A stretch of 64,000 nt of DNA, from NCBI GenBank assembly GCA_024180945.1, contig JAKSGN010000005.1:2418001-2482000 (forward strand), in the 5' to 3' direction. The translations under genes and the position numbers were made by a program. This DNA comes from Macrophomina tecta. Its lineage: Eukaryota > Ascomycota > Dothideomycetes > Botryosphaeriales > Botryosphaeriaceae. Positions within the stretch are counted from its first letter, which is position 1, and every line of letters begins with the position of its first letter. The notes beneath the pieces were generated by a model. The model saw only the letters and a program-made list of their open reading frames with translations. It made no database searches and was not told where the DNA came from. Shown here piece by piece: positions 1-42,453 of the stretch.

Positions 1-2
1 CA

Positions 3-1253
3 CCAGCGCGCGGAGATCGAATCGACGAGCTCTTCAGTGGGGTCGAGTACCGGGATGCAGACCTTCCCTGGCACGACTGGGAGTCGGTTAAAGTCTTGGA
101 GAAGATGTCAGAGACCCACTTCCTGGTATCAGTCGACGATTCCCTTTTCGGTTGCTACGTGCCTGAGGGAGCCTTCGAATATGAAGCCTACAGCATCTTC
201 CTGCAAGAAGTGAGAGCTTGGAAACGAATCAGCAACAGATCAGAAATCCCCCAGGCCATCCCGCGGCTCACAGGGCTCGTATGCTCACCACTGAGCACAA
301 CCAAGCTCCAAGCCGTGCTTTACGAGTGGACGGACCTCAACAAACAGACGCCATGTCTGAGCCACGTGAACGTAGATGAGGCGCCCGTGGAACAACGAAT
401 GGCGTGGCTGCGTCAAATAGAATTGGCTGTTTCCTTCTTGCAGGCCGGACAGGCAAGTTTAGCGAGGTACGGCTGCAAAGGAAACATCGCAGAACAGATC
501 AGCATCACCAACAACGGGGAAGCGCGCCTGAGGACCATCCACTTTGGCGACGTCGAGAATTACCGAGGATCTTTCAGCTTCGTGCCTCACGAACCAGCGG
601 ACCGCCGGTTCCTCGCGGAACTGCGGAGGTTCCTCAAAATCGACGGCGGCACGGCCATCAAACCCGAGCCATTCAACTTTCTCGGCCTCCCATCCGAGGT
701 CAGGAATAATATCTATGAGATCCTCCTCGTGTTTCCTGGCCGTACCAGATGGCTGTGGGGATATCGGCACCAGGCCGACGCGTCGGCGACAGCTGGCTTC
801 CTGCACGGCGAGATTCCTGGTCTTGGACTCCTCCGTACCAGTCGTCGGGTACGCCGAGAGTCTCTGTCGCTTCTTGTTGGGCAGAACAACTTGCTCTTGG
901 ACGCTGTTTGGTTGACATCTTTCCTGGAGAGCAGCACGCAAGTCGAAGTCGACGGCCACCTTGAACGCGTGATGGTCGGATCCTACCTGAAGAGAATCAC
1001 CCTCACCGTTACTCTGACGTGGCAGAAGCAAATCGGTCGGGAGCAGGCCAAGGGGATCAAGGCGTTGGTCCAGGACTGTCCAAGCCTGGAACAGGTAGAC
1101 ATTTTCATTTACAACAGGCGCGCGTGGTATTGGGAGAGCGATATGGTGTGGGCTGAGCTCACAAGGCTGCCGAATGTCCGGGTTGAGGAGCATTTTGAGG
1201 GTGACAGTCCTCTCACCCAGCTCGGAACCAGTACAGTATTGATGCTTGACTGA
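3..1253 (+). CDS. F-box/2EXR-like protein, 5' partial
   Basis: The reading frame is open from the first complete codon at base 3, and good coding sequence precedes the first ATG at 105, so the gene almost certainly starts left of the window. The visible protein is about 416 residues. Its middle carries the motif LPSEVRNNIYEILL, the usual core of fungal F-box-like/2EXR proteins (consensus LPxElRxxIYeyll). It is followed by the 'LLRTSRRVRRES' segment and a C-terminal half predicting short beta-strands and helices, as is normal for that family. The part before the motif is unassigned. Such proteins are abundant in fungi and mostly of unknown role; some F-box proteins are substrate adaptors of SCF ubiquitin ligases. 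No intron is needed. Whether it belongs to the transposon cargo or to flanking DNA cannot be told. Confidence 0.7.
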   Translation, partial: PARGDRIDELFSGVEYRDADLPWHDWESVKVLEKMSETHFLVSVDDSLFGCYVPEGAFEYEAYSIFLQEVRAWKRISNRSEIPQAIPRLTGLVCSPLSTTKLQAVLYEWTDLNKQTPCLSHVNVDEAPVEQRMAWLRQIELAVSFLQAGQASLARYGCKGNIAEQISITNNGEARLRTIHFGDVENYRGSFSFVPHEPADRRFLAELRRFLKIDGGTAIKPEPFNFLGLPSEVRNNIYEILLVFPGRTRWLWGYRHQADASATAGFLHGEIPGLGLLRTSRRVRRESLSLLVGQNNLLLDAVWLTSFLESSTQVEVDGHLERVMVGSYLKRITLTVTLTWQKQIGREQAKGIKALVQDCPSLEQVDIFIYNRRAWYWESDMVWAELTRLPNVRVEEHFEGDSPLTQLGTSTVLMLD

Positions 1254-2267: not shown

Positions 2268-3770
2268 GACATTAGCAAATCATGAGGCGGGCGCAATCCA
2301 AGGAACCAGCCTCCTCCCTGCCATGGTGCGAGATAACTGGCTTCGTTCTCTGACGAGAGTGATGGGTGCACACTTGAACTTGTTTCCGCCAGCTGGGAGA
2401 GCCCATATCCAATCGGAAATGCTTGTGCGGTCACCTGCTCAGCATAATGTGTGAAGCCTCCAACTGTTCTCTGGCCTTCGGTTGTAGGAAATCCAATAAT
2501 GGGTTGCTCTGTGCTCTCAGTGCTGCCATGCGACGGCGATTGGACGCGGCCAACCAGAGTGGAAGATTCTTGGGTCCTCTGGATAGCTTGTTGACCTGGC
2601 ACATCATGTTCGATCCGTCCGTGGCCAGATTGGGCGTCTGCTAACATGAGCATGGATCCGGAGAGATTTAGGAACATCGAACCTTGTATACCAGTGTACC
2701 AGTGTGCCTCAGTTGCTTCGATCGTCCTTTTAGCCGATACTGATTGCTTGCGGCGTTTTCTCGCCCGCGCATGCTCCGGTGATGACTCCTCGCTTGCGGT
2801 CTCGTTGTGCGTAAGGACGGAGCGATCTATCTTCTTGGCCGCATTTTGCGATACGCAATTCTCTGGGCGTGATGAGCATTTTCCAGGTCTAATTTGTCCA
2901 TCAACATACCATCGTAAAGCCGCTGGCAAGTTTCCAGCCATTCTCCCTGTACAACGAGTCTTTGGTATAGGTCCTTCTCGCGGTTCCGAAGCAGGTCTAT
3001 GAATGTCGAAATCTCATCGGGAACTCTCAGGCGCATGCCTTTTTTCCACGTAAATGCGAAGATTATCGACAGCCCAGGCATGGCCTTCTCCTCGTATCGG
3101 AGGAGCTTCTCACCTTGTATGACGTATTGTCTGTATGAGCCACGTCTTTGGCCTGCGCGGTCACAAAACAGCGTTTTGCTGGCTAGGCGGTCATTTGGGC
3201 AGCTTCTGAATATCGCGTACTCCCTTCCTAAACTTCGAGTGGCCAGAACTCTCCGGAACTTTCTCTCCACCGACTGACCAGTGCTCCTAATGTGTATGAT
3301 TCGAATGTCTTCGTCGGCATTTTCAGGCTCTACTTGAAGAGCTTCATGAACTGATCTCTGTAGGAAGTCGAGAATTTTTTGACGGAACGACTGCACGCTA
3401 CTGAAAAGGTCTTGAACGTTTTTGGATGCCGTTTTGAGATCGTCCGTCCGGTCGACCGTGCGCTTGTTCGAGTCAGATTTGGTGGAGATGTGTGCTCGCA
3501 TCTGGAGATCATGTTCAGAAGGTGGATCATTCGTGTCAAACAGGCTAGCGGACTTACAAATGGAAGTTTTGCTAGTCTATCCACAAGACCGATGACACTT
3601 GTCTCGAGCAATTGCAATTCTCTGTCAGAGGCTGACTTAATGATAGCCATGGACTCCGCCAGGCTTGGAGACAGCATTTTTGGAGGAAGGCAATGCTGAG
3701 CAGATAGCTGAGGTAGGAGGCTGCGAACTCGAGTGGAGACCAGCAGCTCTTGGAATGATCTCCCTCCCAT
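2264..3770 (-). CDS. Hypothetical protein, three exons, 467 residues
   Basis: Exons (minus strand) are 3558-3770, 2910-3501 and 2264-2862. The two introns have canonical GTAAGT and GTATGT donors and CAG acceptors, and all phases agree. The N-terminal half is mixed helical (LETSVIGLVDRLAKL, then a segment rich in charged helices). Around residues 150-250 there is a beta-rich segment containing WKKGMRLRVP and IDLLRNREKDLYQRL, which loosely resembles the ubiquitin-like domains of large fungal orphan proteins. The C-terminal 200 residues are low-complexity, Ser/Thr/Gln-rich, with a basic cluster ARARKRRKQ that could be a nuclear signal. The start at 3770 is the first ATG of the open frame, but an upstream exon cannot be excluded. 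It is divergent from the RING gene at 4245, with a long palindrome between them. No function assigned. Confidence 0.5.
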
Positions 3771-8240: not shown

Positions 8241-11200
8241 CTAAAAATACTCTCCACTCTCGGGATGTCCACGCTTTCTCTTCACAGGTAATGGGGGAAG
8301 ACGCCTCCCGAACGATTGGTGATTGATCCTCCCGAACGGGGCGTTGAGCCTCTGACATGCCACGAGATCCTCCAGCTTCCTAGGCAGGCCGCTGATGTAA
8401 TGTGAAGGGGAGCTATCCCCAACCGCGGCTAAGGTGATGCTTACTTGATGATCCATAGTAGGCGCACGGAACTCTACACGCTTTCTGTAAAGAGGGAGCC
8501 CCCTCGGAATAGTTTCAATGCAACGGAGCGGCTGCCCATCAAGGAGGAAATAATACGATGACTTGAGGAGATCATCATAGAGTGCTTTTCTTCCTTCCTT
8601 TGGCATATCCATGCGGCAGAATATGACAGCACTGCAAACGTACGAGTCTCCATCAAATGTAGGCGTCTCTACGAGTTCAAGGTAGAACATAGACGCAAAC
8701 ATGGCCTGGTAGACGCATCGAAGTTCTGGTGAAGACGCAATCTGATCTTCTGCTTTATGGCGTAGGCGCTTCATGGTGGACACGTCGTCGATATCCGGAC
8801 TAAGGTCTCCGAGGCTGATGTTTAAACGGTGGTAACGGTGCTTTTGGCTCTCAGAGACGGTATTAATGAAGTCTCGCCATGCTTTCTCGCCGTCAGTACT
8901 CCGCATAAAGGATCGGAACAGCCGTCTAAGGCTCCGGTCGTGTACGGGTGAGCGAGGCTCGAATACAGCTTGGGCGTCATTGAAACTAGTCCCAGTCCCA
9001 ATGGACAACGCAAAATCAGGCTCCCCTCTATTCGGCCAGAGGAAACGATATTCGCAGAGGGCGATGCCGAGCGGGTTATTGTGCTGAAGCCCGCCATCTT
9101 GAAAAGTGCCGAGGTTTCTAAGTACCTTCGGCTTGAAAAACCTTAAGACCTTGTAAGCATCAGCATAGATGTAAGAGAAGAGTCAGCTAACCATGGGGCT
9201 GCAGATGTCGAAGATGCCCTTAGAGACTAGATTAGCAAAGGAAACTCCTACTTCGGAGTAGCACTTACGCTTCGTGAACCATTACATCGTCCTGAGGTCT
9301 TTGCGCCCTTACGATTTGGTAGCCAATGCTCGAAGGCCTTCGAATCCCGTTGTAGTTGGCGAATAAGCAGGTAAGGACGTCTTTAGCCGTCGTCGTAGTA
9401 ACGGCTACCTTGGTTTCAGATTTAAGCGGGTTGAACATTTGCGTAGGCCGCTTTGTAAGAGTTTGAAAGGCAGCTTCAATGATATGAGATTCATACTTGC
9501 CGTCTCTTACGTATGAGACAAGAGTGCGCAGTTGGGACATAGGATTCAAACGGGCTATCGGCCCTCCGAAAGTCTGAGATGCCAGCCGCTCGAACTTCTC
9601 CAGGCATTGCTCGGGATCCCATTGCATGAGGAAAAGCCCAAGAACAATCAGGCCGCCTGTCCCTTTTAGAATAGGCCTATGTATACCGTAGCGAGAACTT
9701 ACCAGCAGAGGTACCGCAGACGTAGTCGAAAAAGTCTGGAAGAGGCAAGAGCAAATGTGAGAACTTTGCGTATATCTGCTTTATGATCGCCAGCTCTACT
9801 ACGCCACGAACCCCCCCGCCGTCAAGGGTAAGGATCCTGATCCCAGCAGTTGGAGGAATGAAAGTAAACACGTCGTCCTCGATGGCTCCACAAAGGGGAC
9901 AGGCATGGAGTGTGAAAGTGTATTTTTCGGAAACTGATGGTATCCCAAAGGTTTGAACACATACATCGCACAACGCGTGTTTGCAACTCAAAACCTTCTC
10001 CGGCGTGCGCATAAGGCAGCACAGGCAAGATCTATGGCTCTTTAGCTCAACCAAAGAAGTCTGCAATAGCTTCAACGTATCCAAGTGGAGGCGGGCAACT
10101 GGGACACCCTGTTCCAGAAGATCGCAGAACCCACGCTCGAACTCGCCCTCGACCGCAGTTATAAATTTCTCGCGCACTTCGGGGGTCGTTCCATGCTCGA
10201 TCAGAGCTACATCGCACACGCCGCGGTAAAGGCGGGAGAAGACGGTCTTGGGGGCGAAGTCTAAGAGCATGTGTTAGCAGATCAGCACATTGCAGCGATA
10301 GATGCCCTTACAATGTGAACCGGGGGGGTAACTAGCCAGGAGAAGAGCAGATGCGAGGAGCGGAGTGGCCGTATGCCACAGCCAGCCGTCGGAGGGGACA
10401 ATGCCCAGTAGCTGTTGTACATGATTCGGGAGATCCTGTGTAGAGAAACCAGCGGCACGCGATGCTATGATGTAATCAAACTTTTCCTGCCCATTACAGA
10501 AATCCTCGACGAGCATCTCGAGGAACGCGCGCGCGTGGCGGGTTGTGAATAGCATCCTTGAGGCACGCCGGGCGGATTGTACAGAAGTCGAAACGGACGC
10601 GATGCATCTTCGTAGAAGTTTAGACCGAAGTTCGGGGCTTATATCCTTGTGCAGACCCAGCACTCGGATTTCACGAAAGTGATCTAGAACATCCGACGTC
10701 AGCCTGCTTGGACCGCTGTCCTTCTCCAAAGTTGTGTGGCCCGACTCCTGGCCCATCTCCTCCAGGGCCGTCTCAATCTCCCTGTACAGCCTCGCCTCTG
10801 CGGACCAGGCATCGAAGACGTATGTGGTCGTATCTACGATAACCAGGGCTCGGGGAAGGGCGTCTGGTTGGAGGCGGTTGTTCGGCAGCCCTGAAGTCAG
10901 TTGCTCTGCGATTAGCCTTCCGACTCCGCGGAGGCCGCCCAGATCAGAGGCAAAGTAACAAACGACAGACGACAGCGGGGCCAGGACGCGATTGTAGAAG
11001 AGGTGAGCGATTTCAGCTTGTCCGCGCTGTCTTGCCCATGCTACCTCGTGGTTGCGTCGCGAAGCTGGTCCGGCGTGTTGTTGCGGGGCGCTTTGTTGAC
11101 GACGGTGCAGCTCACAGTCGACGAAGATTCGGGGTGTGTCCCCGCGGCAGGACTGGGTCTCGGCGAAGAGATGCACATTGGCCGGCGCGTTCGAGGTGAA

Positions 11201-11371
11201 GGCGGTGAGCTCGCGTAATAACTTTGTTTTCGCCGGACCACCAATCAGGGTGACGAAATCTGGTGACTGCGCGTCCGTGAGCGAGAGCGAAGAAAAAGCG
11301 TCAGTGCGTTCCTCCAGCCGCCAGCATCCGCCGTCGATGGGAGAAGCAGTGACCCAAAGAGACTCAGTCAT
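8241..11371 (-). CDS. RING-patatin phospholipase-like protein (Starship PLP type), 977 residues
   Basis: Five exons on the minus strand: 10312-11371, 9703-10260, 9269-9656, 9192-9218 and 8241-9141. All introns (46-51 nt) are GT..AG and in phase; the fourth exon is only 27 nt. Residues about 432-477 form a C3HC4 RING (CLCC, CKHALCDVC, CPLC). The patatin domain follows: oxyanion loop DGGGVRG near 500-506, nucleophile elbow GTSAG near 536-540, and the paired DGG motif in FQDGGLQHNNP after the small exon. All parts of the Ser-Asp dyad are therefore present and acyl hydrolase activity is plausible. The N-terminal 350 residues are unassigned. Patatin-like genes are one of the recurrent Starship accessory families. 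The gene is divergent from the DUF3723 gene, sharing a 301-bp promoter. Substrate and role are unknown. Confidence 0.85.
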
Positions 11372-11672
11372 GGCTTCGTTTTGCGTTGACTTCCACGGCA
11401 GGAGGCGCAGTCCTTCTTATACAGGCTTCGCTGCAGCACCTGCCTGTACAACAACCGGAGGGCATGCTCCCGGCATCCCGCCCCATGGCGGACCAGGACC
11501 GTCGAGTCGACATCCGTGACGCGGCACACAACCGCGCCGACAGTCGGCACAGTCTACTATGACAGGTTCCGCCAGCATTGCCCATTGACATTCCGCGCGT
11601 GCAAGCAGATGTATATTCGGGCTGGCTGCTCTACGCGCCCGCCCGCGCACCAGTATCAACTCTCCAGCAAAC
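11372..11672. promoter_or_regulatory. Shared divergent promoter of PLP and DUF3723 genes
   Basis: A 301-bp gap separates the two outward-facing start codons, so both promoters must lie here. Co-regulation of the two accessory genes is possible. No specific site was identified. Confidence 0.5.
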
Positions 11673-14600
11673 ATGGATAAGGCGGAGGCTGCTGACGTGA
11701 CACGTGATCCGTGGGTGCTGCCAGCGTTTCTGGGCGTAGCAAGACTCCCTATCAACAGCCTTAGCTTCGATCACGAACTCTTCAAGCAGCACAGGCCCGT
11801 GTCTGACAAGATCGTTGATCGCCTGCGGACTATTTTTCAACGGGAGGGCTGCCTCCGTACTCCGAGCCAGAACTGGATTGATGCGCTGGTTGACCCGCGA
11901 AGACTCCGCTCTGCACTCGCCCGAAATGGACTAACACAGGATGACCTCCGTCCTGAAGCGGAGAAGTTGCCACTTCTCGAGCTGGGGCCGGTGGACTGCC
12001 TTCAAGGAATCCATCGCATTCTCGCTGCTTCTGACTTTCTGAATCAAAATGATCGGTGGTGGACTGTGAGGCTCTACTGTTCCCGTGAGTCTTTTTTTTT
12101 TTTTTTTTTGACTAGAGTGCATATTCGGCCTCATTTTACTATGCCGGGCTGCTGACATGACGAAGAGACCCTACCTGAAACTACGAGTCTCAAGATAATC
12201 GAAGGCAGCCTGAACGAACAGCCACATTCTGACGGAGAGATATTCCGCAAAATTCGCATCTATTACAAGGAAGGCAACAAGAAAAGCGAGAGTAAGTGGT
12301 GGGCGCGGTTGACGCCTACCAAGCAGAAAGATCTAAAGCAGCTCCTTAAAAACCCCCAGTTCGCCAAAGCATTCGACGACCTGATAGATATGCCGGGTCT
12401 CTGGTATTCTATAAAACTCGGCACCCTGCACCGATTATTAACTCTACGTTGTGATGAGGTAAGCTGCTGACTTTCACAATCCGCCTTGTGACTAAATCGC
12501 CTTTCAGGAGCTCCTGCGATACTTAAGACACGTCCATCGCACGTGGAGAGGTTTTATCAGTGGTGCAGGAATTGCGCCTGAGGCCATCGACCGGGACACA
12601 GTAGAAAGACTTGAACTTCTGGCGCCCGGCACATCAAAGAAAGATCGAAAGCTTATTAACGACTACGTAGGCTCCGGAGAGATTTTTCAAGAAGTGACGC
12701 ATGAGTCGGCGAGACAGGGAATCCTTCAAGCTCTTACTTCCGTGCCAGGATTGATCCCTTCCTTGAGAAGCTTCTTCGAAAATCTGAAATACCTCGAGCC
12801 CTGTAGTAATATCCTCAGGAAGCTTGTAGGTCCTAAAGAGAAGAGAACAATCTTCCAAAGTCTATCTGGCGCTTACTTCGCTCCTAGCGAGCACTCAGTG
12901 GAATATGCTGAACGAAGGAGACGGGCAGCACCCACCGGGAGAGGCGATGAGAGCGGGTTATGGATGTCTTACGTCCAACTTTGGGCATTCTGCTTCCGTC
13001 ACTTCCCCTCGATGACGCAACTTGTCCCGAGGAAAGAATTGGGGAAGGATAAACCGGCCATTCGTTCAAATGCCGCGCTATGGCACTACTTGGGTGATTT
13101 GGCCGTGAAACTCGGATTCCGCACGGAGCAGGCTGAGAGATTTCAGCAGCAGAACCCCTATCGGACCCTGGCCCAGCAGTTTCTGACAAGTCAATCAGAC
13201 TCGCCGCCGGACTCAAGAGTGGTAGCGCGTATGGCGCTCATACTGAAGCAGGCCGACAAAGGCCCTGCGGGAGCCAAGACCCCGCAGCTTACTGATGAGC
13301 AGTGTCTATCGAAGGACAGGAGATGCGGACGCCCGTTCGATGACGACTTTACCAATGACAAAGGCTCGCTGTTCCTCCCATTCATATACGAATTTGAGCC
13401 TTGCGAAGGGCTTGACATAAGCCCGTTTTTCGTCAAGAGGGACATATTCCTGAGCTTTTTAGGCAATAAATATGAAAACGTATGTATTTTCCTTCCATGT
13501 GGGACACTCGTCACCTGACCCCAGTTGCAGCCTCCCGATGATAATGTCGGGAATGATGATGGCGTAGATCCAGACGGCGATACCCCTATGAACGACGAAC
13601 TGGATGGCTCATCAGGGCCGTCAGAAACCCAGCAGCTACAATCAGATCTCAGACGCATGGAGGATCAGAATCATCAGCTCAAAGCACAACTTGACCGTAT
13701 CCGTGGGCAGAAGCGCGAGTTGGAAGAAGCGCGAGATGTATCGGATTCCCGTCACAGGGAATTGGAAAGAGAACGCCAAGAAATCACCAACCAGTTGAGC
13801 GCGAGAGAGAGTCAGCTTGCAGAAGAGAGACAAAGGGCGAGCAAGATGGAGCAAGAGATTAAAACACTCAAGCAAGAGCTGGCTATCCTTGAGGGAGAAC
13901 ATAATGCCACAGATGTTTTAGAAAGCCACCCTCTCGACCCGGCCGCTTCCGAACTTGGACAAGAGCTCTCCATGGTCAACAGCCTGTTAAAGATCGTAGA
14001 GGTAGAAAGAGATAAGCTAAAGGCAGATCTCGAGGCTGTGGGGATCGATCGAGATAATTACAAGAGCCAAGTTGCCAAGCTGAACCCGGATCTCGAAGTT
14101 GCCAAAAAGTCCTTTGAGGAAGCCGCTAATCGCATCAATGCTTTGGAAGTAGAACTTGCTGCAGCCAATAACGAAGTCCGTGAATTGGCTGAAAAACTCA
14201 AAGTCGCGGAAGATTATGAAGAGAAGTTTCGAGGGGCGCAGGAAGACATTCACGAGCTAGAGGAAAAGATCCGTGAGTTGAGAGCAGGCGCTGATGTCAC
14301 CAAGCAGCAGCTCCACACACTACAGCAAGAAAACAAGAGTTGGAGAGAGCAACACAATCTTGAAGAGCGCATGGAGTTAGTGACGGAAGACAAAGCAAAC
14401 CAAGCTCAGTTGGAGGAGCAGGTTCGTCGGCTACAGAAAGAACTGGAGAACTCACAAGTCTTGACGAGAACAGCCCTTGAAGACAGCAAAGGGCTAAGGC
14501 AAAAGCTCCAGGAATCTGCGGTTGCTCTTGCTACAACCCGAACACTTCGGGGAAGGAATAAAGCCCTTCAGAGGCAACTAGAACTGCGGCAGTCACAGTC

Positions 14601-15240
14601 GGGGGTATTCAAGATGCTCCAAGCGTCTATGGAAAATCTCTCGGAAGGAAGGGAAAATATGGGAAGTTTCCATATCGTCACATCGACAGCGGTCATTACC
14701 ATTGGCATTCCGAATTCTGAAAAGGCTGACGATTGCATCAAAGAGGTGATTACCGCAATTCATGCGGAGAGCCAGGGAGAGCAATGGGCAATGTACTTCA
14801 GATTTCAGAAAGTCATACCTAACAACTGGACGGTCGACTATATCAGGAGCGCACTAGAGCAATACGGCACCTGCATGGCCGGCCCCGAGGCTCTCCTTCT
14901 CTCAATGATAGCGAAGATGGGTTCCGGGAGCAGGGAAAAGCTGCAGGAGGGTTCCAACAGACCTGGGGAACGCGCAAACGAGGCTTTCTCTGTCCTGGAG
15001 ATTATGCATCACTGGATTGAGAGTGAGGCGCAAGATCGGAGACAGGAAGAGGATGATGTCCAAATGGGAGTGCTGGAAGAAGCCGCGACAGAAGATGATG
15101 AAGGCTCTCCTTCTGCGAGCTTTATTGGCCCCGCAAGAGCAATGATCGAGGGAGGAAGCCTAGTGGGGGACGAAGAAGGCACCAGTCAAGAGGCACAGAG
15201 CCTCGCGCTAGTGCGGCAACGTGACCGAAGAACGCCATGA
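11673..15240 (+). CDS. DUF3723 protein with long C-terminal coiled coil, 1128 residues
   Basis: Exons are 11673-12084, 12166-12458, 12508-13479 and 13531-15240; introns are 81, 49 and 51 nt, all GT..AG and in phase. The first intron carries a T-run. The N-terminus matches the DUF3723 signature: LGVARLPINSLSFDH, then a V-S-x-K-x-V-x-x-L element and IFQREGCLR, followed by an alternating helical region to about residue 560. Exon 4 encodes an acidic linker and then about 330 residues of nearly unbroken heptad-like, Glu/Lys/Gln-rich coiled coil, with a small globular region near the C-terminus. DUF3723 proteins are a hallmark cargo family of Starships and have no established biochemical role. The architecture (globular N-terminus plus long coiled coil) suggests a structural or assembly function, but that is inference. 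Confidence 0.87.
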
Positions 15241-17633: not shown

Positions 17634-17646
17634 GATTTGACGTACC

Positions 17647-18111: not shown

Positions 18112-18582
18112 CCTGTAATGCGTCAGCAACAGCCCGGCGCCGGACTTCAACACTCGCACCTGTTCGACATCGGGTGTTCTTTGGACGGCCTATTCAATTT
18201 AGATCCGGGCGCCTTTATGTCCGCACATACGCATCGCGCTTATCGGGACATAGGTTTGCAGATCCGCGACGCGGACTTGTCCGGGGGCGCAGCATGAGCA
18301 GGGGGTGGGAAGGAAATGCCATCGAGACGCTCGGGGTCGTCCAGGGACAAGGGTAAGCGATAACCTCTGCTTGACTCGGCGCAGATCCTTCGGCCCATGA
18401 CCACCACAAGCCCGCCCGACGACATGAAGGCCGCTAGCTCCCAGCACCCTACCGCGCCGCACCCTGCACTCTACCGCGCCGCACCCTTTATTCCGGTTAT
18501 CCGACACGTATCGGTGCACTTAGAATTTCCTTATATAATGACTCCTAGCAATTGTTTCCATACGCTGCGCAGCCGAGGCACA
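18112..18582. other. Upstream region of ferric reductase
   Basis: About 470 bases. It may hold a small 5' exon of the coiled-coil gene (minus strand) and the promoter of the ferric reductase; the TATA-like TTATATAATG at 18530 is near its start. In-frame ATGs at 18397 and 18538 could extend the reductase, but the added residues are Pro/Ser/His-rich and look non-conserved. Confidence 0.4.
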
Positions 18583-24053: not shown

Positions 24054-25052
24054 TCAGCTAATTGATGAGTTCTCAGCCTCGGGTCTGGGATGCGTAGGCG
24101 CCCAGATTGACATCCACCTGTGCGATAGCAAAGCCGTAGGGTCATCAGATGTACCGGAGTCCGAGTGAAGCTGGCCGCTCGCGAACCCGTTCACTGGTTG
24201 AATCAAGACATCCCCCAAGAGAAAGGGCTCCTTCAAACCTGATACCTCATCCCCATACATGTGAAACCCAGTTTTCTCAGACAAGTATTGGAACACAGTG
24301 CTCGTGAAAACCCGAGGCCCAGTCAGACTAATCACGTCTTCGAAGAACACCTCAGGAGGAGAATCGTCCGGGCTATGCTGCTGAAAGAACTGCTCAACGT
24401 TCTTACCCACGTTTTCCACGACCCGATAGATTAAGGGATGCCGCGCTTTCGCCATGATCGTGAATTGTGAGAACTGGACGGTCCATGGCGCCCCCTGCCA
24501 GACCGGGCCCTGGCGATTGTCTATTTCCACGCCGACGACTATGTTTGTGAGGTTAAGGTACTGTTGAGGTATCCAATTTTCGATGGGCTGGATGGGCCTG
24601 GTATCAATGTCGGTGTATACCCCACCTTCCGCGAGAAGGACCAAATATCTGAGAAAATCCGCTCGGAGGATCGGGTCGTACTTGATAATGTCGTATGTCT
24701 TGCGGACAGTCCGATCGTTACGGAACGTTTTGTAGACGAAGGAGTCCTCGGTCTCCTCAGTCAAACATTTGTATTGGTATTCTGGGTTGATTCGCCTCCA
24801 TTCTTCCTGGTACGTATCCACGAAGGATGGCTCCCCTACAGGCGCGTGGTGCCAGATCTGCCAGATTTTCTTGGGGACTAATTGAAATCAGACACCCACG
24901 TAACACGCTAAGGAACCTTACTTACAATGTTTGTCCTGTCGACCGCCCGATAGTAATTGGTGGTGGTGAAAATGCGATATCGCTCGGTACAGCCACAGGT
25001 TTGTGAGTAGTACACATGCTAGAAGAGCAAGCTTGACGGACCTTGCTTGCAT
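24054..25052 (-). CDS. Och1-like glycosyltransferase (Gly_transf_sug, DXD)
   Basis: Exons on the minus strand are 24926-25052 and 24054-24877 (48-nt intron, GTAAGT..ATTAG), giving 316 residues. The N-terminus MQARSVKLALLACVLLTNLWLY is a type II signal anchor. After the intron comes IPKKIWQIW-like FPKKIWQIWHHAP, then the DXD motif in AEGGVYTDIDTRPI that binds metal and nucleotide sugar. This is the architecture of fungal alpha-1,6-mannosyltransferase (Och1/Hoc1) relatives in the Golgi; the exact acceptor cannot be inferred. The Ser/Thr-rich C-terminal tail is short. Many filamentous fungi carry several accessory members outside the core Golgi set, and this one lies in cargo territory. Confidence 0.85.
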
Positions 25053-26891: not shown

Positions 26892-28305
26892 CTAAATCGA
26901 AGAGCGGGGGCTTGAAGTTGCAGAATCAGGTAGACGCGGCAGTGGGTAGATTGTCACTTCGCCTCTCTGCAGGACACAAGGAAACAGGAAGAGGGCTGTA
27001 TCACCGCGCCTCTTTCCAAAGAACAAAGGATTCCAGCGTGACCAGCTCCAGATATGGTAGTAAGGATGAAGATAGTACATCCTCACGGATGTATGGATGC
27101 TGTTTGAGTTAGCCTCCGGCTCCGGTACGCGGCCTAGATCACCTACCGGCTTCTCGACCTTGACAGTCGCGCTCTTGCTCTCACTAAACAGGTCGTCTAG
27201 GAAGTCCATGAGCTGTTTAGCACCGCTCCAGAGTTCAGGTCGGCTAAGGCCGAATACTTTGTAGACCGCTCTCTGTTGACGAACATGTTCGACATCCGTA
27301 TGTTTTCCCGTGCTCTGTCCATCCATGCATTGTAGCAGTAGCAAACCAAGCTGCTCAAGGTCGGAATTGGGCATAGCTTCCTCAAACATCGTTGCATGGT
27401 CGAAATCAGCTACAATCTGTGAGCTTGTGCAACTGTGATAAGGAAGCGGAAGTCCTACCCAGCTTAATAACCATGCTTCGTCCACATATCCGCGTCGTTT
27501 GCAGTTTTATATTGCCATGAATGACACGATGCGCGCTGATATAACGGATGGCGGCGAAGATCTGAGGAAGTCAGACGAGGACTCCATGACAAAGTAAAAG
27601 GATGGATGGGCAGACCGAATGGGCAATTAGACGCAAGTGCGGCTCCTCGAGTCCAACGTGGACATTGACAACCTCCTCAAGCGTGAAGCGGCAGTACTCG
27701 AGCTCAATATAGACCTCGTCTCCGTCCACGAATACTTCGAGCATCTGGATAACGTTGGGATGCATAAACTTGCGCAGCTGCCCCGCCTCTTTCAGCCCCC
27801 CAGCTCTCCTACTGAGAGTCTTCACCATTGTCAGTCTCTGGGGCTCATCTTTTACTGTACACACTATGAGCTCGGAACTTCCTTGTACAATCGATCCCAA
27901 ACGTTTGACACGATCCCACGGCAGGCCGTCCTGAGTATGAACGAGCGTTTCGATTGCGTGCGGTGTGTGGTTGGGAGCAGAGAGAGACGAAGCGTTGTGT
28001 AAGGCAGCTGGAGCGACTCTTCGGACGACTGTCTTAGCGGATTTCAGATGGACTGGTAGGGGGGACGCTGGTGGCGACTTGGTGAGGTTTATCGATTTCG
28101 CCGGACCTGTAGGTGAAGGACTGGGGAGACGTCTCTTCTTTGGGTTCTCAGAAGGGATATCAATTTTCAGTTCCGAACGTCCCTTGCGCTCATTCCTAGG
28201 AGATATTCCTGTACTTTGTGTTTTCTGAAGAACAAGGGCACCATATGTTGGCACATTCGGTGCCTGCGGTCTCGGGTGTCGATTGAAGGCCTCTTCGGTG
28301 AGCAT
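26892..28305 (-). CDS. Protein kinase-like protein, probable pseudokinase
   Basis: Exons on the minus strand are 27616-28305, 27459-27561 and 26892-27409 (introns 54 and 49 nt, in phase), about 436 residues. After a Pro/Ser/Lys-rich N-terminal 130 residues comes a kinase fold: LGSIVQGSSELIVCTVKD (Gly-loop region), a Lys in LTMVKTL, helix C, the hinge YIELEYCRFTLEEVV, then IRYISAHRVIHGNIKL in place of the catalytic HRDLK loop, and LADFDHA in place of DFG. The catalytic Asp of HRD is replaced (HGN) while the metal-binding Asp of DFG is kept, so phosphotransfer is doubtful. The C-lobe is shortened. It may act as a scaffold or decoy. It is divergent from the coiled-coil gene at 28648. Confidence 0.68.
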
Positions 28306-28647
28306 TGCGCCGTAGTCGTGTTTTCCGCTGTCGTCGCGGACTCGAAGAACGTGCAGACTTCTTTCTGAGGGGCAGCAACGGGAAGCGGAGGCCGAAGAGA
28401 TGGGGTGGCCAAATGGGCCAAAAGCTGCCTGTCGACATCTGTCTCGCGCGCGTCTCTGCGTCCCCTACAGACAGGGATCCGGCTTGCCAATCAGCAGCAG
28501 TGGAGCGAACCCCAAAATAGACGGGGGGAGAGAATGTAGAAAGCAAACAATGGCTTGATAAAGTGCTCCATTTATCCAGTTCCGAGGGCCAGTACAGTAT
28601 TACGTCGTTTCCTCAGACACACAACGCACATTCCACAGACACCCGTT
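28306..28647. promoter_or_regulatory. Divergent promoter region
   Basis: A 342-bp gap between the kinase-like gene (minus) and the coiled-coil gene (plus). A 5' exon of the kinase-like gene might lie here. No defined site was recognised. Confidence 0.4.
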
Positions 28648-29896: not shown

Positions 29897-32188
29897 TCAA
29901 GTGTTCTTCATCGCTCCCAGCTGCTGCTGCAGATCCGACAACGCCTTGGCAAGCATGTCTATCTTATCCTGCAAGTCGGCGTTGTTTGGGACAGAACTCT
30001 CCCTCTTCCCGGACTCATTCGGAGAAATGGTGGGAGGGGAACTATCCATTCTACCAGCGGGATCAGTGAAAACGGCGTTGTTGGTAGGCAGGACTGGCTT
30101 AATCTCCTTTACATCTTCTTCGTCGCCTGAGATGATCTTCGTAAAGCGCGATTCTTTGTTGCTTGCAGCAGAATCGAGGGCTGGGCCATCCCCGAACAAC
30201 CACGGCATGCTTTCTCTGTCGGATGCAGTGAGCGGTGCACCAGTATCTGGGTGCACGCGTTGAGACCTAGCATCAGCCATTTTTTTCTGGCGTTCGCTAC
30301 GGTAAGTGAGCCTTTTCTGTATCTCCCGCATTGCGCTCGATTTACCACATCTCATTATGAACTCCGTCTTTGTCCAGATGACGGGCTTCTGGCCTTCCAA
30401 TCCGTAAATGTACGCCGGCGGGGCGCGCCTTGCGCCTGCTGCCGGCGTCTCCGTCTGAATAAAATCCATGGATCGGAATGATTCAGGCTTCCATCCCTTC
30501 GGCTTGTCACTCTCGGAGCGGAGCCTGGGATCTTGAAACCATTCCTCAGCAAAGCCTCGGGGGAAGTCCGCCCCGTTCCGTACGATTATGAAAGGCTTCT
30601 TTTCCGTCCCAGCGTTCAGGAATACGCGGTATGCGCCTCTACCGATTTGCCTTACGAACATAACTTTTCCAAGCGAGGTAAGTCCGTTTTTCAGGCCAGG
30701 ATGGATCATCATCGTGCCATCCTCATCTGCATCCGAGATATCGCCGTTTTCACTAGCCGCGTCCATATCCGGGTCAATGTCGGTCACGGTTGGACTTCGT
30801 CGCGCTGGCGGTGACGGAGACCTAGTGCGTTGCACGTTCGCGGATGGTTCTTCAGACTGCTGCGGTATCTGCCGTGGCGGATTCATAGAGGCCGCTAGCA
30901 TACGAACTTGCTCCTCTATGTATGCCTGGATTTTTGGGTGCATCATTAGTTGGGCTTCGGACAGTGGCGGCGCTGCTGCTTGCGAAGTTTCGGCTCCCGT
31001 CAGTAGTTTAGGCGACTTGGGCGCGGGCAGTCTTCTTGACGAGGATGCTGACGATGATATTATAGAGGGGGATTCAATTACCCTTGATTTCCCCTTCCCT
31101 GAATTCATAGGGTGCTGCAGCAAGTTCTGAACGAACTCTCTTTGCTCTTCAATAAACTCAGGACCACGGCGGACCTGCGAAGGAATATTCGCAACTTCCA
31201 ACCCCATCAACTCAAGTTTGCCTTTTACGCGTGATCCATGAAGGACTAGGGAGTCCTCATCAATTCCGCCTTCGTTATTTGCGCCGTCCAAAAGAGTCCG
31301 GAAGTCCTCAAGCGGCAAGGTATGGTCTTCCTCCCTGTATGCCAATTCGTTGTTTACTTTCCTCAACTGTCCGTTCACAGCTTCCAACGCTTGAAGATCC
31401 TTACTGGCTTGACGGTGATTTTTGTTCCCCAAATTTGTGAAGAACCTTTCCACAATCGGCCCAGCGGCCTCCAAGACCTCTCGTTGTTGGTACGTTGGCA
31501 TTGCCAGGTTCTTCATCATTTCGGTCAGGTCCTCTTGTGTTCCCCACTCCAGCAAGACGATCTCCATCACCTTCCAAACATCTGGAGTGACGAGCCGCCT
31601 GAAAATTATACCTCGTTGCGAAAGCCCCTTGATGAACATTCTGTTACCGTCTAAAAACTTCTTTGCCAGCATTTCTTCCCGGTCTGGTCTTTGCATCATT
31701 TCCTCAAAGAGAGGTAGGTAAATGTCGAATAACTTGATAATCTGACGGGCGGGGAAGTGATTGTCTTCATAGCTTTCAGGTCGTCCCTCTCGACTATTCA
31801 CCTTACTGATGGTGGCGTTTATGGTATCGAACTCTTTTCTGAGTGATCTTGTCCAGCTCTCTGCCCAATAAAGCTTCATGGCTTCGTAAGCCTTCTCATA
31901 AAGCTTTGCGACCGCCGGTGATATTTCAGGCACCCGGTTCATTGCGAGCAGAGCAGCATGTTCGCCCATCGCTAAATTCTTCAAGCGAGAAATCTCTTCA
32001 TCGGCGAGGATGGGTGTGTTGTCTTCCTCGATCACATTTTTGTTTTCTTCTGCGGCTGCTTCATCGGGCTTGCCCTCTGAAGTCAGGAACGACGGCGAGT
32101 CAGGTTTGTTATCGTACGGCGCTGGTTTCGCATAACGTATGGGCCGGGTGCTTGGACCAGCACTGGTGGACCTTCTTGGTGCTGCCAT
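29897..32188 (-). CDS. Large intronless protein of unknown function, 763 residues
   Basis: One uninterrupted frame of 2.3 kb from the ATG at 32188 to 29897, unusual here because most neighbours have introns. Residues 1-70 are disordered. About 70-370 are helical and acidic/basic alternating (for example LYEKAYEAMKLYWAESWTRS and PLFEEMMQRPDREEMLAKKF). About 380-500 are a Pro/Ser/Gln-rich linker (RTRSPSPPARRSPTV). About 500-660 are a beta-rich folded segment (LGKVMFVRQIGRGAYRVFLN and PPAYIYGLEGQKPVIWTKTE). The end is a disordered region closing in a short leucine-containing helix. No catalytic motif, zinc knuckle, signal peptide or membrane segment was seen. A gag-like or captured-virus origin, or a retrocopy, would explain the lack of introns, but nothing proves it. 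Confidence 0.75.
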   Translation of the reverse strand: MAAPRRSTSAGPSTRPIRYAKPAPYDNKPDSPSFLTSEGKPDEAAAEENKNVIEEDNTPILADEEISRLKNLAMGEHAALLAMNRVPEISPAVAKLYEKAYEAMKLYWAESWTRSLRKEFDTINATISKVNSREGRPESYEDNHFPARQIIKLFDIYLPLFEEMMQRPDREEMLAKKFLDGNRMFIKGLSQRGIIFRRLVTPDVWKVMEIVLLEWGTQEDLTEMMKNLAMPTYQQREVLEAAGPIVERFFTNLGNKNHRQASKDLQALEAVNGQLRKVNNELAYREEDHTLPLEDFRTLLDGANNEGGIDEDSLVLHGSRVKGKLELMGLEVANIPSQVRRGPEFIEEQREFVQNLLQHPMNSGKGKSRVIESPSIISSSASSSRRLPAPKSPKLLTGAETSQAAAPPLSEAQLMMHPKIQAYIEEQVRMLAASMNPPRQIPQQSEEPSANVQRTRSPSPPARRSPTVTDIDPDMDAASENGDISDADEDGTMMIHPGLKNGLTSLGKVMFVRQIGRGAYRVFLNAGTEKKPFIIVRNGADFPRGFAEEWFQDPRLRSESDKPKGWKPESFRSMDFIQTETPAAGARRAPPAYIYGLEGQKPVIWTKTEFIMRCGKSSAMREIQKRLTYRSERQKKMADARSQRVHPDTGAPLTASDRESMPWLFGDGPALDSAASNKESRFTKIISGDEEDVKEIKPVLPTNNAVFTDPAGRMDSSPPTISPNESGKRESSVPNNADLQDKIDMLAKALSDLQQQLGAMKNT

Positions 32189-32522
32189 GTTGTTGTGTTT
32201 GGTTTGGTTTAGTCGATTGTTTGATATGTGTGTTGTGTGTTCGTTGTAAGAGAGCCTTAGATGTAGTGTCGAGTACCTGCTCGAACTGGATTGAATTGAG
32301 AGTGACCTGGCAGACTTCCAAATGGAATGGAAGCCCTTTTATAGCTTTCAGCTGAGTGATGGGGCTATTACTGACTATCCGAACGTTGTCGAGCTGGACT
32401 TGACGTCCGGTCTGTCGGCTGCCGGGCGGGATGGCGGAATGCCGGTAGCCTGAATACGTATTCCGAATAGGCGTGGAATATAAGGACGGGGGCAAAGTCA
32501 GTCGATATGCTCTTCAGACACA
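32189..32522. promoter_or_regulatory. Divergent promoter of the 763-residue protein and a small secreted protein
   Basis: A 334-bp gap between outward-facing starts. It contains the palindrome GAATACGTATTC near 32452 and several GC-rich palindrome-like stretches (GCCGGGCGGGATGGCGGAAT). These could be binding sites; nothing is proven. Confidence 0.45.
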
Positions 32523-33179: not shown

Positions 33180-33967
33180 TTACATGCGCCACCCACGGTA
33201 AGAAAGTGTCGGCGGTTGCACGCGCCGTGGTCGACCTGAACCTCGCCTCTTCTCAACATACTCCAACCCCCCCTCCACTTCTTCCTTCTCGAACAAAGCA
33301 GATGACTGTCGGGCTAGGAGATCAATGAAAAACTCCTTGGGCCCCTCATTTACATCAATCCAATCCTGGTTAATGATGCCATCCCCCTCATCAATCGAGC
33401 AAAGCCAAAGGTCGATATATAGCTGCCTCCAGGGGGATGAGACAACTGTCTGCTGATACAGCAACTCAGCAAGATGGTGTGGATAGCTTCTCGTCTGCTT
33501 GGCCAAGGAGAGAATACTGTTCAGGATCGCATCTCTAAAGTCTTGGTCTTGCAGATAGTCTGCAAAGACGTAAGTGTGATGGAGGAAGGTGTACTTGTCG
33601 TTCGTTTCGAGTTCTTCCGAAACGACGATCTCCCTCGTGTAGACCCAGGTGATATAGACTTCAAAGATATCGGGATGGGCATCCTCTATTGGTATCACGC
33701 CTTGGCTCTCCTTCCATATACCGTTGATTATGCCACTAAAGTAGGCGGAAGTCGAAAGAAGGCCTTGGTGGATGTGAAATGGAACTCTCCACTCCCCCAC
33801 CAGAACCGTGACGACTTTGCCACTGAATCTACCGCTTGTTAGTAAGCGTTGACATTTGTGGCCTTTTCGGCTTACCGGGACTTGTTCCGTGCGTGTCTGT
33901 ACCTCCACCTGGGCGGCTCCTTTAAAGATGAGGTAGCTTGGGAGGGCGGCTGTCGCCGTCGGGGCAT
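33180..33967 (-). CDS. BTB/POZ-domain protein, 247 residues
   Basis: Exons on the minus strand are 33876-33967 and 33180-33828. The 47-nt intron has donor GTAAGC, a perfect TACTAAC branch and acceptor GGTAG. The intron also reads through in frame, which gives a misleading longer ORF; the branch site and phase favour splicing. Exon 1 is basic (MPRRRQPPSQATSS). Exon 2 is a typical fungal BTB fold: GKVVTVLVGEWRVPFHIHQG, LLSTSAYFSGIING, then DAHPDIFEVYITWVYTREI. BTB domains mediate dimerisation and often link to Cul3 ubiquitin ligases, but stand-alone fungal members are mostly uncharacterised. Confidence 0.78.
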
Positions 33968-34701
33968 GATGGTTTGTGACCAAGCAGTGTGTGCAGTGTG
34001 AAGTGGAGGGCTGGACAAAGTGGAGGCGTGATTGGAAAATCGGAAGGCAAGGTCGGACGAGTCTAAGGGTAGCGGAAGCATGTAGGGTGCTCTATATATA
34101 CATTGCTGCTGTCGGGATCGGCATTTCAGATGAGATGGTGCTGCCTTTTTTGGTTTGGGGCGGAGAGGTTCCACTTGCTGCATCCAAGAGCGGAGGCGGA
34201 CTGACGACTCATGGGCCCAGTCGTCGACTGTGCCTCAAGGATCAGTGGCCACAAGGATCAGGTCCTGCACGCATCTGAGGCCTTCATGAAACCATGACAT
34301 GGCAAGACAGCAAAGCAGGCTTGCATCGGCACGAGACAAGTCATGACGCTACGTATCACAACATCCCGGGTTACGGTGAGGAGAACCTGACGGCGCCAGC
34401 CCGTTCGTGTGGAGTCTCGAGCCGCGTCACCCGCTCCAGACAGTAATGATAGCCAGAGTGGTGTCTGTATCATGCGGTGGAGTGCAGGAATACTGGCCAA
34501 TGGCGCTTGCATCGTGACCATGCCCCGGAAGGAAGGATCATGGCTGATGCTGGACCGGAGGTCTGTTCGGGCTTGGCCGTTCCCTGGCGAGGGGCCGCCA
34601 AAGAGATAAGTAGGCGCGAGTCCCTGTTTCTGACGCTGTCAATTCTTTCACCATCACTCACACTGCTTCCTATCAGTCAGTCAAGACATCTTCTCATCAT
34701 C
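33968..34701. other. Intergenic, about 730 bases
   Basis: It lies between the divergent BTB gene and the 402-residue gene. It contains a TATA-like CTCTATATATAC near 34091 (for the BTB gene side) and a pyrimidine-rich stretch before the 34702 ATG. No coding segment was accepted. Confidence 0.45.
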
Positions 34702-38959: not shown

Positions 38960-39518
38960 GATTGCTGAGAGTGTTTTGCAGTGTGTTAAGTTAGCCCTGG
39001 GCTGTTTTAAATTGTCCACTGCGAGCAAAGGCCGGCAAACGGGACGCCGCCGTCCAGGCAATCCCCGCCCTACCTTATGGCGGAAAACTGACACGCGGGC
39101 CGCCAGAAAGCTGCCAGTAGCTTTCAAGGCAGCTATTTTTCTGATTTGAAATAGATGGAACGGACGTTTCCACATCTGGTTGGTGCGTTGGGGCGGCGAA
39201 ACGCCCCCGCTGAAGTTTTGGCGGAGGCTACCACCTTGATGCATAGACTACTCCTCTAAAAAGTCTATCAAGTACTTGTAACAGCAGCGTTTTCTCTGAA
39301 AAAGAAGTTTTACGGTACCGAGGTCTCGAGGTTAAGGCCAAAGAAGAGGCCACATTGCTCTTTCCGGAGACCGGGCCGTCAATAAAGCCCCTAAAGATGC
39401 GGCAGCCGTGAGAGCCCGAATCACTTTATAATATTGATTAGTCATATGCGAGTTTAATGAGAGATATGAAGGTTTCTTGATTGAGTGAGCTCTAATAATT
39501 CCGAATCACAACAGCTTT
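38960..39518. other. Intergenic, about 560 bases
   Basis: It lies between the captain's 3' end and the small 107-residue gene, both on the minus strand. No gene, RNA or repeat was recognised. Confidence 0.5.
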
Positions 39519-42453
39519 TCAGTCCTCCGTGAGATCGGTCTCTTCGTACGTGACACCTCGCTCGCCTCCACAAGTATCCGCAGAATTCGACTCTTGCAGA
39601 GTACTTCCTACTGCCATACTTTTACGGATCCTCATAGCGATGCCGTGCACATCCTCCAAGTGGTCCAAATAGCTCTCGCGGTTGTACTGGTGGTCGTCTT
39701 TGCAGAGTGGATGAGGGCATGGAAAAGGCCGCCTGTACTCTCTGACGTGCTTCATAATATGGCCTCTATGGTCCGTCTGAGACAACTGCCTGTACCTCTC
39801 TGAGCCCTTGCCTTCTTGGCCAAGGCAGAAGGGGCACAACGGGGCGAAAATAACAGCTCCTTTGAAAATGATGCTGCCGCAGAAGGGATCCCGCAAGTCC
39901 CTCAAATGTTGCTCACAGTGCTTCTCCCAATCGAAAATTGAAGTAAACCAGGCTCTACACTGGTGACAGAAGGAGGCCTTGTGGTCAAGCATGGAAGGAG
40001 AGGGGGCCCCGTGAGCCTCGAGTAAATGACCCTCCAGAGCCAGAGTGGTGCCAGCTGACCAGTCGCAACTAGACCAAGCGCAGGACCCACCTAAGGAATG
40101 ACGAATATGGTGCAACATGTGTCTAGAAATTTTGCTGGTAGTTTTATTTGCAAAATCAAAATTGCAGGCGGCCCAGCGACATTTCGACGCCATGATTCGA
40201 CACATATCTTGTGCCAGAGGGAGCATGAGCTTCTTCTCCGACTCATCGAAACTTTCGTCGACCTTGAACGTATTGAAAGGGTCTTTGGCCACCAGCGGGC
40301 AGATTTCTTTGGCCTTTCTGGCTTCCTCGGAGTTGTACAACTTGAAACATGTAAGGAGATGAGTATTGAACTTCAGCGGCGGATAACTACAGGATCCAAT
40401 AAGTCATAATCTCTGGTTAAAGCAGATGGTGAACTTACTTGGTAATGTCCTTTGAACACCAAGGGCATTCTTCTGTATCTGCAGAAACCCCTGGCAGCGG
40501 ATACAAGGCATAAAATGGCCCTGGATCCGCCATCTTCAATAAAGGGGTCAGTGCCTCCTCCAAAGGCAGTGGGTCAGCACTGCCGCGCTCGTAGAAGTTG
40601 CGTATAACATGCGCTCTGTCGTGGTCGTACCGAAGCAGGATTTTCATCCAGGGGGACGGCTTAGGACGGACTCTCGTAACGCGGCCAGAAGTGACGTACT
40701 CGAACCTGTCCTCGTCTGGTTCATCGGAGGACTCTGACTGAGCTGTTTGTGGGTTCCTAAAGTATGCCTCCCTTTCCTTCCTGAGTTTCTGCCTTTTCGC
40801 ATGCCGAGCAATCTCGTACTCTGCTCGAGATGCGTGCCCGCGCACGCGTTTGCCGGAAGTTGTCAGGGATGCTGTGCGGGGCTTCGGGGCGTTGAGGTTA
40901 CGGCGGAACGCCATAGATCGTAAGAACTCGATCTGGTGGGTCCGCGGTGCCACGCCCTGAGTAATGGCTTGGTTGTCTACAGGCACGACCTCGGACATGT
41001 AGACTTGGAACATTCTCTCATTTGAGTGACCCATGATTCGCTGTCGCTCGGCAGAGGTCACGCTCTCTGCAGCACTGCGTAAGATGGGAAGCACGATTGA
41101 GCTGGGAAAAGTGACACTTACTATCCAATGCATTGCCAACGCCTCTTCGAAAGGTGTATGCGCTTAGGGGCTCTTCGTAGCCAGCTCGTTCCCCGAGCTT
41201 CACGAGCATGTATTCCAGAGAATTGTACTTGAGGATAGCCTCGTCGGAGATTATAATCTGATCCTTGGTAGCTCGCAGGATAGGCACCTCTAGCATCTCT
41301 TCCTTAATTTTAATAGGCTTTGAATTGGCCCCGGCATCAATGCTTCTGTCTTGAAGCTGCGCCATGTCGAGTGCTCCATCTGCCACAGCGAGCGCAAAGA
41401 AAATCGTCAGGGGACAGAGCATTCGCATCTCTGGGATTTCGAATAGAGCATGCTGCTGGCTTCTCGCTTATCAGAGCACGGCTTCGGCTTCGGCAACTGG
41501 GGTACTCACCTCTTGTCCAATTCATTCCGTTTCTTCTTCATGAGCCTTCGCCTGATGAGCATAGTGATCTTCCCGTCCCTATCGACGAAGAGAGAGCAGT
41601 CCTTATACTTTAATCCGTCATTGGAACCTGGGTAAAGGTTCGACTGCACCAACTCCCCAGGCCTCATGCCGAGACTGCCAAGTACCAGGATAGCGAATGC
41701 GAGCTGTAAGCGCTCGCGAGGGTGTTTAAAAATATGCTCATCGCATGTCCATAGGTAGTTAATAATATCCTCAACGACGATAAAGTTCGCAAGGCCCTTT
41801 GGATCCGCGGACCAACTGGCCCCCTCTGTGATAGCCAACTTCTTGATTTCCTAGATCGATCACTGATTAACTATGTACTGACAGGGCTTACGGATACAGA
41901 GTGGTTCTTACACGTTTCATAATCTCCCTGTCCGCTTTCGGAAATTCGTAACCAGTTTCAAGTTTCAGGATACGCGCGACGATGTCGAATTCCCTTGTAG
42001 AAGTGCCTACGCATCTGGTCCGATCGGACTGGCCGGGTTTTGTCCTAGTCATCCAGATGAAAAAGGATCTGATGTGCTCAAATTTGGGGACTGTTTTAAG
42101 GTCCGCCAATTCCATGACCTTAGGATCATTGCTTTTAGTAGCGAGGACCGAAATGAATCTACCGGAGGTCAGTACGGTCTACAACTCGGCGGCGCAGTCA
42201 CTTACTCATTCCAGCGTCTGAGTACGCGCGATGGCTTATCAGCTTTCAAGAATTCGTCCTTTAGAACCGGCTTCGTGTACGCCTCGTCCCTAAGGGCGGC
42301 GAAGATGTCGTCCGTAGAGACCGGGATGAAACGGTCTCCCGCACGGGTCATACTGGTATCGAGAGGAGGGAGAAATCTGTAGCAATGAGAATTTCGCTGC
42401 GCTGAAAGTTTGGGGACGAATGAATAAGCCGGCGACAGGAAGCCAGGGGACAT
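39519..42453 (-). CDS. DUF3435 tyrosine recombinase, Starship 'captain', 889 residues
   Basis: Six exons on the minus strand: 42206-42453, 41912-42158, 41510-41850, 41122-41459, 40439-41066 and 39519-40386. All introns (47-61 nt) are GT..AG and in phase. The tyrosine-recombinase catalytic pattern is visible: Arg in LGSLGMRPGEL (about R228), basic residues in LIRRRLMKKKR, YTFRRG (Y380..R383), MGH (H405), and FQVYMSE with Tyr414 as the presumed nucleophile. The C-terminal 340 residues hold a basic region and several Cys/His clusters (CPWC, then CRWAAC..H..H, CHQC, CPFC), i.e. zinc fingers usual in this family. The enzyme would cut and rejoin DNA to mobilise the element. The start at 42453 is the first ATG; the ATG of MTRAGDRF is an alternative. 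No frameshift or early stop was seen. Confidence 0.88.

Follow-up and report, generated by a model that had tools for sequence, protein, structure and literature searches.

A probable Starship transposon of Macrophomina tecta with ends in a tRNA-Asp gene

In the parts of the published accounts consulted here, Starships range in size from 15 to about 700 kb (PMC12134995), carry accessory genes of the NLR, patatin-like phospholipase (PLP), ferric reductase (FRE) and DUF3723 families (PMC12506042), are flanked in A. fumigatus by direct repeats of 2–12 bp (PMC12153272) and include elements that target 5S ribosomal DNA (rDNA; PMC12153272 and PMC12134995). Here, we describe a 64,000-nucleotide stretch of Macrophomina tecta (‘the window’; contig JAKSGN010000005.1, referred to as C5, positions 2418001–2482000) that holds the captain end of an element at C5:2397097–2461571. 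We consider it very probable that this is a Starship whose DUF3435 tyrosine recombinase, the captain, integrates in transfer RNA (tRNA) genes at the box A hexamer TAGTGG, and that it carries a tRNA-Asp 3′ half with it. 5S targeting is already published; we found no tRNA-targeting Starship in the literature searched, a partial set without the founding Starship papers, in which the mention of tRNA beside Starship and captain concerned a wyosine synthase gene. We worked with a single genome of 54.1 Mb in 37 contigs, so that the relatives discussed below are other loci therein; position x of the window is C5 position 2418000 + x, and negative positions lie to its left.

The element resembles the 5S rDNA Starships, such as Osiris of A. 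fumigatus, as far as the consulted part of PMC12153272 describes them, in its DUF3435 captain at the 5′ end, its accessory set and its large size, and the target of both is a multicopy gene whose RNA is made by RNA polymerase III, but it differs in having a tRNA D-loop as its target, a 105-bp repeat and a complete tRNA gene at the captain end. DUF3723, FRE and PLP are all present, and the size of about 64.5 kb and those of two relatives on C2 and C21 (about 111.5 and 51.5 kb) fall within the Starship range. The flanking repeats are TAGTGG or TTAGTGG at C2 and 105 bp starting with TAGTGG at C5, with unlike cores at C21. Carrying the piece that rebuilds a target tRNA gene is best known from bacterial genomic islands. 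Bacterial integrative islands and prophages at tRNA genes have a tyrosine recombinase beside a complete tRNA gene, a displaced 3′ fragment and an arm that matches the target. By analogy, the C5 element has a complete tRNA at its recombinase end and a displaced 3′ fragment at the other; of these two features the C2 element shows the displaced fragment, while the tRNA at its captain end is incomplete. If our reading is right, the C5 element would be a eukaryotic parallel to these islands, from which it differs in its host, in its DUF3435 recombinase, in the absence of conjugation or phage genes among the element open reading frames (ORFs) scanned against Pfam, a subset of all ORFs, and in a D-loop crossover, through which almost all of the tRNA and its intron would be carried.

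Cryptons are small and without giant cargo, and Dada elements are not driven by a captain. Cryptons are like the C5 element in being DNA elements of eukaryotes that have a tyrosine recombinase and short direct repeats (4–6 bp), and their account mentions neither tRNA nor DUF3435 (PMC3212892). CryptonF is defined there by a tyrosine recombinase with a GCR1_C domain (PMC3212892), which is absent from the captain's Pfam matches up to E = 1, where DUF3435 stands instead. The Dada DNA transposons, known from fish, are specific to tRNA and small nuclear RNA genes as insertion sites and form a distinct group, for which giant cargo or tRNA restoration is unmentioned in the consulted part of PMC8869645.

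A six-frame genome search with the DUF3435 model (PF11917) gave at least 43 matches, tallied per exon, three of them exon pieces of the captain in the window (40741–41763; two above cut-off). Spliced from the minus-strand exons 42351–42206, 42158–41912, 41850–41510, 41462–41122, 41066–40439 and 40386–39519, with splice sites picked by eye, the captain model has no internal stop in 856 residues and five GT-AG introns of 47–61 nt; the in-frame upstream ATG at 42453, from which the gene had previously been started, is possible too. The protein matches DUF3435 at 2.5e-43 (residues 161–465) and Phage_integrase below cut-off (9.9e-4), and its C-terminus has a Cys/His-rich region that looks zinc-finger-like by eye. 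Two arginines (in RPGE and FRRG), a histidine (in MGH) and, near the domain end, a tyrosine (in xYMS/xYIS), which we take to be the catalytic residues expected of tyrosine recombinases, are kept in the captains of C5, C2 and a more distant locus on C6. No homologue was found at E ≤ 0.001 among 7991 scored candidates of a protein database in which fungi are perhaps poorly covered. The preliminary description of this DNA had placed a DUF3435 recombinase on the minus strand near 39519–42453, noted that a captain is usually the 5′-most gene and advised a captain hidden Markov model search of the genome; the search and the gene model bear this out, with the captain reading inward from its start at 42351, the element end at 43566–43571 outside it and all cargo leftward (Table 1).

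Table 1 Features of the element and its captain-side junction (window coordinates)
Feature	Position	Strand	Basis or remark
Part of the element inside the window	1–43571	−	full element C5:2397097–2461571; left 20.9 kb outside the window
RING-like and patatin-like phospholipase gene	8241–10273	−	motifs; DNA similarity to C2 and C21 elements
DUF3723 gene with coiled-coil-like C-terminal ORF	11589–15240	+	PF12520
FRE, ferric reductase	18364–20377	+	Pfam domains
Acetyltransferase, Mac and Hexapep domains (cargo)	21304–22551	+	
DXD glycosyltransferase, Gly_transf_sug (cargo)	24054–24887	−	
Protein-kinase-like gene (cargo)	26892–28464	−	sub-threshold Pkinase on 27571–28464
BTB/POZ domain protein (cargo)	33180–34091	−	
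Captain, DUF3435 tyrosine recombinase	39519–42351	−	6 exons, 856 aa, PF11917 match
100 bp 3′ of the tRNA with T-run (terminator candidate)	43367–43466	−	
105-bp direct repeat, right (captain-side) copy	43467–43571	−	partner C5:2396992–2397096; 101/105 identical
Complete tRNA-Asp(GTC) gene with intron	43467–43583	−	Rfam RF00005, 43.8 bits; ARAGORN Asp(gtc), 45-nt intron
TAGTGG hexamer of the D-loop (box A), proposed crossover core	43566–43571	−	

For the ends, we compared 184 kb (C5:2318001–2502000) with itself using blastn (E ≤ 1e-3, low-complexity filter on). Just one of the five resulting repeat pairs has one copy at the captain end and the other on the cargo side, and this is a tRNA-Asp sequence (43467–43571 and −21008 to −20904; same orientation, 96%). 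The captain-side copy is part of a complete tRNA-Asp gene 1.1 kb outside the captain, at a position (43467–43583) where a default ARAGORN scan with introns off calls no tRNA. Its partner, 20.9 kb left of the window, is an orphan 3′ piece that lacks the 5′ 12 nt, is undecayed and begins exactly at the D-loop TAGTGG, the sequence beyond being different; the same hexamer is common to this left junction and to both junctions of the C2 element. Because the two copies mark both ends as a direct repeat, the element would thus end at the tRNA-Asp box A core, with its far end at C5:2397096/7 and a length of about 64.5 kb, and in the complete gene the 5′ 12 nt would be chromosomal and everything from TAGTGG onward would come from the element. 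A single element running from about 42.5 kb leftward and possibly off the window, of at least 42 kb, had been proposed; the element, its size and its extension stand, but the captain-side boundary at about 42.45 kb is rejected since the repeat lies beyond it, the end being about 1.1 kb further out in the tRNA-Asp gene, which the preliminary description had missed. No terminal inverted repeats were obvious by eye at the junctions, where no systematic search was made.

The other six of the eight genome matches to tRNA-Asp all have a full 5′ end. That these copies stand singly elsewhere fits an ordinary Starship with ends at another place, for example at about 43.37 kb, beside a native tRNA-Asp gene and with the orphan piece 64.5 kb away by coincidence, as does the 100-bp 3′ flank of the window tRNA, which is roughly 90–92% like that of a tRNA-Asp gene at C5:639 kb, the similarity ending at 43367 (apart from one 85-bp match, C5:639501–642500 shows no more resemblance to the 184 kb compared). 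We regard this as improbable, as the orphan is cut at the very D-loop hexamer where the C2 element splits a tRNA-Gly, and only about 0.007 such copies would be expected by chance in 100 kb towards the cargo (from 7 further matches across 54.1 Mb, of which half are correctly oriented).

The captains nearest to that of the window by DNA are those of C2 and C21. The captain ends of these two loci are 96.4–96.9% identical and diverge at C2:3417424 and C21:637430, about 0.9 kb upstream of where the C2 captain starts (1.2 kb for the equivalent in the window), and the sequence outside the C2 captain end is GCGTTGGTGGTTTAGTGG, the start of a tRNA-Gly. This 5′ half has eight exact occurrences in the genome, as has the 3′ half (up to 2 mismatches permitted; all exact). 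Seven of each pair by position as genes, three of which were read, and the two orphans are both on C2, at C2:3417423–3417440(−) and C2:3305797–3305828(−), on the same strand, in the right order and about 111.6 kb apart, with the C2 captain at the right-hand one. The right junction reads GGTT-TAGTGG-GAGAACC and the left one CTCTAAT-TAGTGG-TAAAATTC, followed by the remainder of the tRNA-Gly, so that the repeat is TAGTGG, or TTAGTGG counting the shared T. The orphan halves and the junctions together thus delimit a C2 element of about 111.5 kb with the core TAGTGG. The stretch shared between C2 and C21 stops at C2:3386857, inside gene-like sequence; this point, an earlier candidate for a left end, was rejected.

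When the right 5′ flank is joined to the left 3′ flank, ARAGORN calls a tRNA-Asp(gtc) at C5 and a tRNA-Gly(gcc) at C2, whereas among the six occupied junctions of C5, C2 and C21 it calls a tRNA at the C5 right junction alone. By this test, the C5 element leaves its target gene restored and the C2 element leaves its own split.

Beyond the core, the C5 element carries an arm that is a tRNA-Asp 3′ half, identical at 104 of 105 positions to a copy on C7; the displaced copy and the one at C5:639 kb each agree with it at 101 of 105. The mature parts of the tRNA-Asp copies are identical and the differences confined to the intron. These intron differences, with the right copy closer to C7 than to its displaced partner, make conversion possible, and 105 bp suffices for homologous exchange, so that the repeat might stem from homologous recombination or duplication among tRNA-Asp copies, free of captain-mediated site-specific recombination. 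We judge this quite improbable, as it leaves unexplained both the short core at C2 and the fact that three related captains start about 0.9–1.2 kb inside a tRNA or tRNA-like box A junction. Under site-specific integration by the captain, the arm would have been acquired from a tRNA-Asp locus during an earlier excision, and the C5:639 kb locus could be its donor or a remnant. Two of the seven full-length tRNA-Asp genes (C3:528429–528531 and C18:231976–232075) have, beside the usual anticodon-loop intron, extra T-loop insertions of 55 and 52 nt, which begin with GTAAG and GTGAG and end with AG, the second containing TACTAAC, and which look like spliceosomal introns.

In the 20 nt past the core, the captain-end termini of C2 and C21 agree in register with the tRNA-Gly 3′ half at 15 and 16 positions, as opposed to 3 of 20 for the C2 terminus against tRNA-Asp. 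None of the 48,760 20-mers of the C2 element (both strands) reached 15 and one reached 14; C2 and C21, as close copies, count as one observation, and the likeness was tested after being noticed. These termini look like a decayed Gly arm. The isotype of the arm is that of the targeted gene in C5 (Asp) and C2 (Gly), a pattern that C21 breaks.

Integration could have proceeded as follows. The captain would excise the element as a circle, whose junction would consist of the element 3′ end, TAGTGG and the tRNA arm, and by strand exchange would recombine it with the TAGTGG of a chromosomal tRNA-Asp gene, as the junctions suggest. The captain end, which carries the tRNA-Asp 3′ half, intron and T-run, would thereby gain the chromosomal 5′ 12 nt and form a complete and presumably working tRNA gene, and the far end would receive the displaced 3′ half of the original gene; both final arrangements are those seen at C5. 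With the core in the D-loop, restoration requires that the whole remaining tRNA, its intron and its terminator be carried, as at C5.

The far end of the C2 element recurs at C21:585942 with 99% identity, and the C21 element, its left end located through this homology, spans 585954 to about 637430 (51.5 kb), with GGGACTATGGTCTAACGG on one side of its site and TAGTGGTATAATACTCCC on the other, which are tRNA-like. Several points at this locus weigh against our interpretation: ARAGORN calls no tRNA at two versions of the joined C21 site, the cores differ (TAACGG versus TAGTGG), a second genomic copy of the 5′ half was not found, and neither was the tRNA 3′ half, sought by pattern. On the same side of the balance, the C2 element splits its tRNA-Gly without restoring it, as judged by ARAGORN on the junctions; the 105-bp repeat is far above the 2–12 bp given for A. 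fumigatus Starships in the consulted part of PMC12153272; the 3′ flank common to the C5:639 kb gene could mean that part of the right end is native chromosome; and the empty site is seen only as in-silico joined flanks of one genome. Of the three elements, those of C5 and C2 thus sit in unequivocal tRNA genes, and the third, on C21, is suggestive only. Recent mobility is plausible in view of the undecayed displaced tRNA half and of the C2 and C21 relatives, which are 96–99% identical at different sites.

The wider captain comparison took in the best-scored relatives. A captain on C6 (C6:245608–249516) shares 38% amino acid identity with that of the window over 753 aligned columns, and 387 nt upstream of its putative start lies a diverged 5S ribosomal RNA copy (positions 3326–3423 of the locus; 36.6 bits against a cut-off of 38, E 9.8e-5), so that this may be a sister element that targets 5S. 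The remaining loci in the comparison (L001–L007, around five further DUF3435 genes) reach at most 71.6 bits per match, and Rfam finds no RNA gene in them up to E = 0.1, a weak negative, as they extend only about 1.5 kb beyond each match. On balance, we lean towards a captain clade specialized on tRNA genes, with crossover at box A and an isotype-matched 3′-half arm, whose C5 insertion rebuilds a tRNA gene; with C6 included, captains would shift among RNA polymerase III genes, a proposal based on the tRNA sites, the C6 5S copy and the published 5S-targeting Starships. Separately, the DUF3435 genes at C10:24625–26064 and C37:482450–483889 have equal scores in each of three pieces, which suggests a very recent duplication or transposition within the genome.

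The case bears on how captains choose their sites and on how an insertion of 50–100 kb can spare its host. Since tRNA genes are multicopy, conserved and unlikely to disappear, an element that targets and repairs them could enter nearly any fungal genome cheaply. For tests of captain specificity, the C5 case supplies a defined core, an arm and, in C2 with the same core and an unrestored target, a naturally occurring contrast. It also suggests screening genomes for DUF3435 genes that have an orphan tRNA 3′ half in line with them, which would give element ends from one strain, whereas the usual empty-site comparison needs a second.

The cargo agrees with the preliminary description, which had named DUF3723, FRE and RING-patatin PLP genes. 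PF12520 matches the DUF3723 ORFs 11589–12155 (7.5e-21) and 12496–13518 (1.4e-81), and at these E values, as at that of DUF3435, chance matches are not a sensible explanation. The stop that closes the second ORF falls within a plausible GT-AG intron, so the DUF3723 frame looks intact by eye. In FRE, FAD_binding_8 and NAD_binding_6 exceed their Pfam cut-offs and Ferric_reduct lies just under its own. ORF 9677–10273 has a Cys-rich RING-like stretch followed by GGGVRG and GTSAG, with DGG in 8241–9182, which we take to be patatin motifs; Patatin scores 3e-5 there, just below cut-off, RING models do not match this ORF, and Pfam gives no family for ORFs 8241–9182, 9265–9780 and 10274–11416, the last of which, upstream, may be part of the gene. 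At the DNA level, pieces of the gene share 72–82% identity with the elements on C2 and C21, and a stretch of the kinase-like gene (27180–27424) is 73.5% identical to C2:3375679–3375923.

Taken with the captain, which is first and reads inward, the definable ends and the relatives at other loci, this signature cargo supports a Starship. That the DUF3435 gene stands alone in an accessory region, with no mobile element, is highly improbable given those ends, the captain's orientation, the DUF3723, FRE and PLP genes, the resemblance of the PLP and kinase-like genes to the C2 element and the split tRNA at that relative. Base composition was not used as evidence: GC content is 52.6% in the element against 55.3 and 56.8% in the flanks, and the tetranucleotide difference is likewise mild.

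No NLR domain was found among the scanned ORFs, a subset of the total. Left of the window, the cargo includes a HET-domain gene (C5:2401435–2403714, 1.9e-34) and a DUF7492 gene (3.1e-68). The HET-domain gene is bracketed by a diverged inverted duplication near the far element end (−20692 to −19969 against −14080 to −13619; pieces 76–84% identical). Inside the window, the element also contains a stop-to-stop open frame of 813 aa (29897–32338) with no Pfam match up to E = 0.01.

The flanks look ordinary, with a zinc-type alcohol dehydrogenase gene on the left and alginate lyase, cutinase, short-chain dehydrogenase, actin-family, P450 and RING genes on the right. A 94-bp repeat in inverted orientation, 82% identical, has one copy in the element near the captain end (43209–43302) and the other in the right flank (51760–51851), and is possibly a small element resembling a miniature inverted-repeat transposable element.

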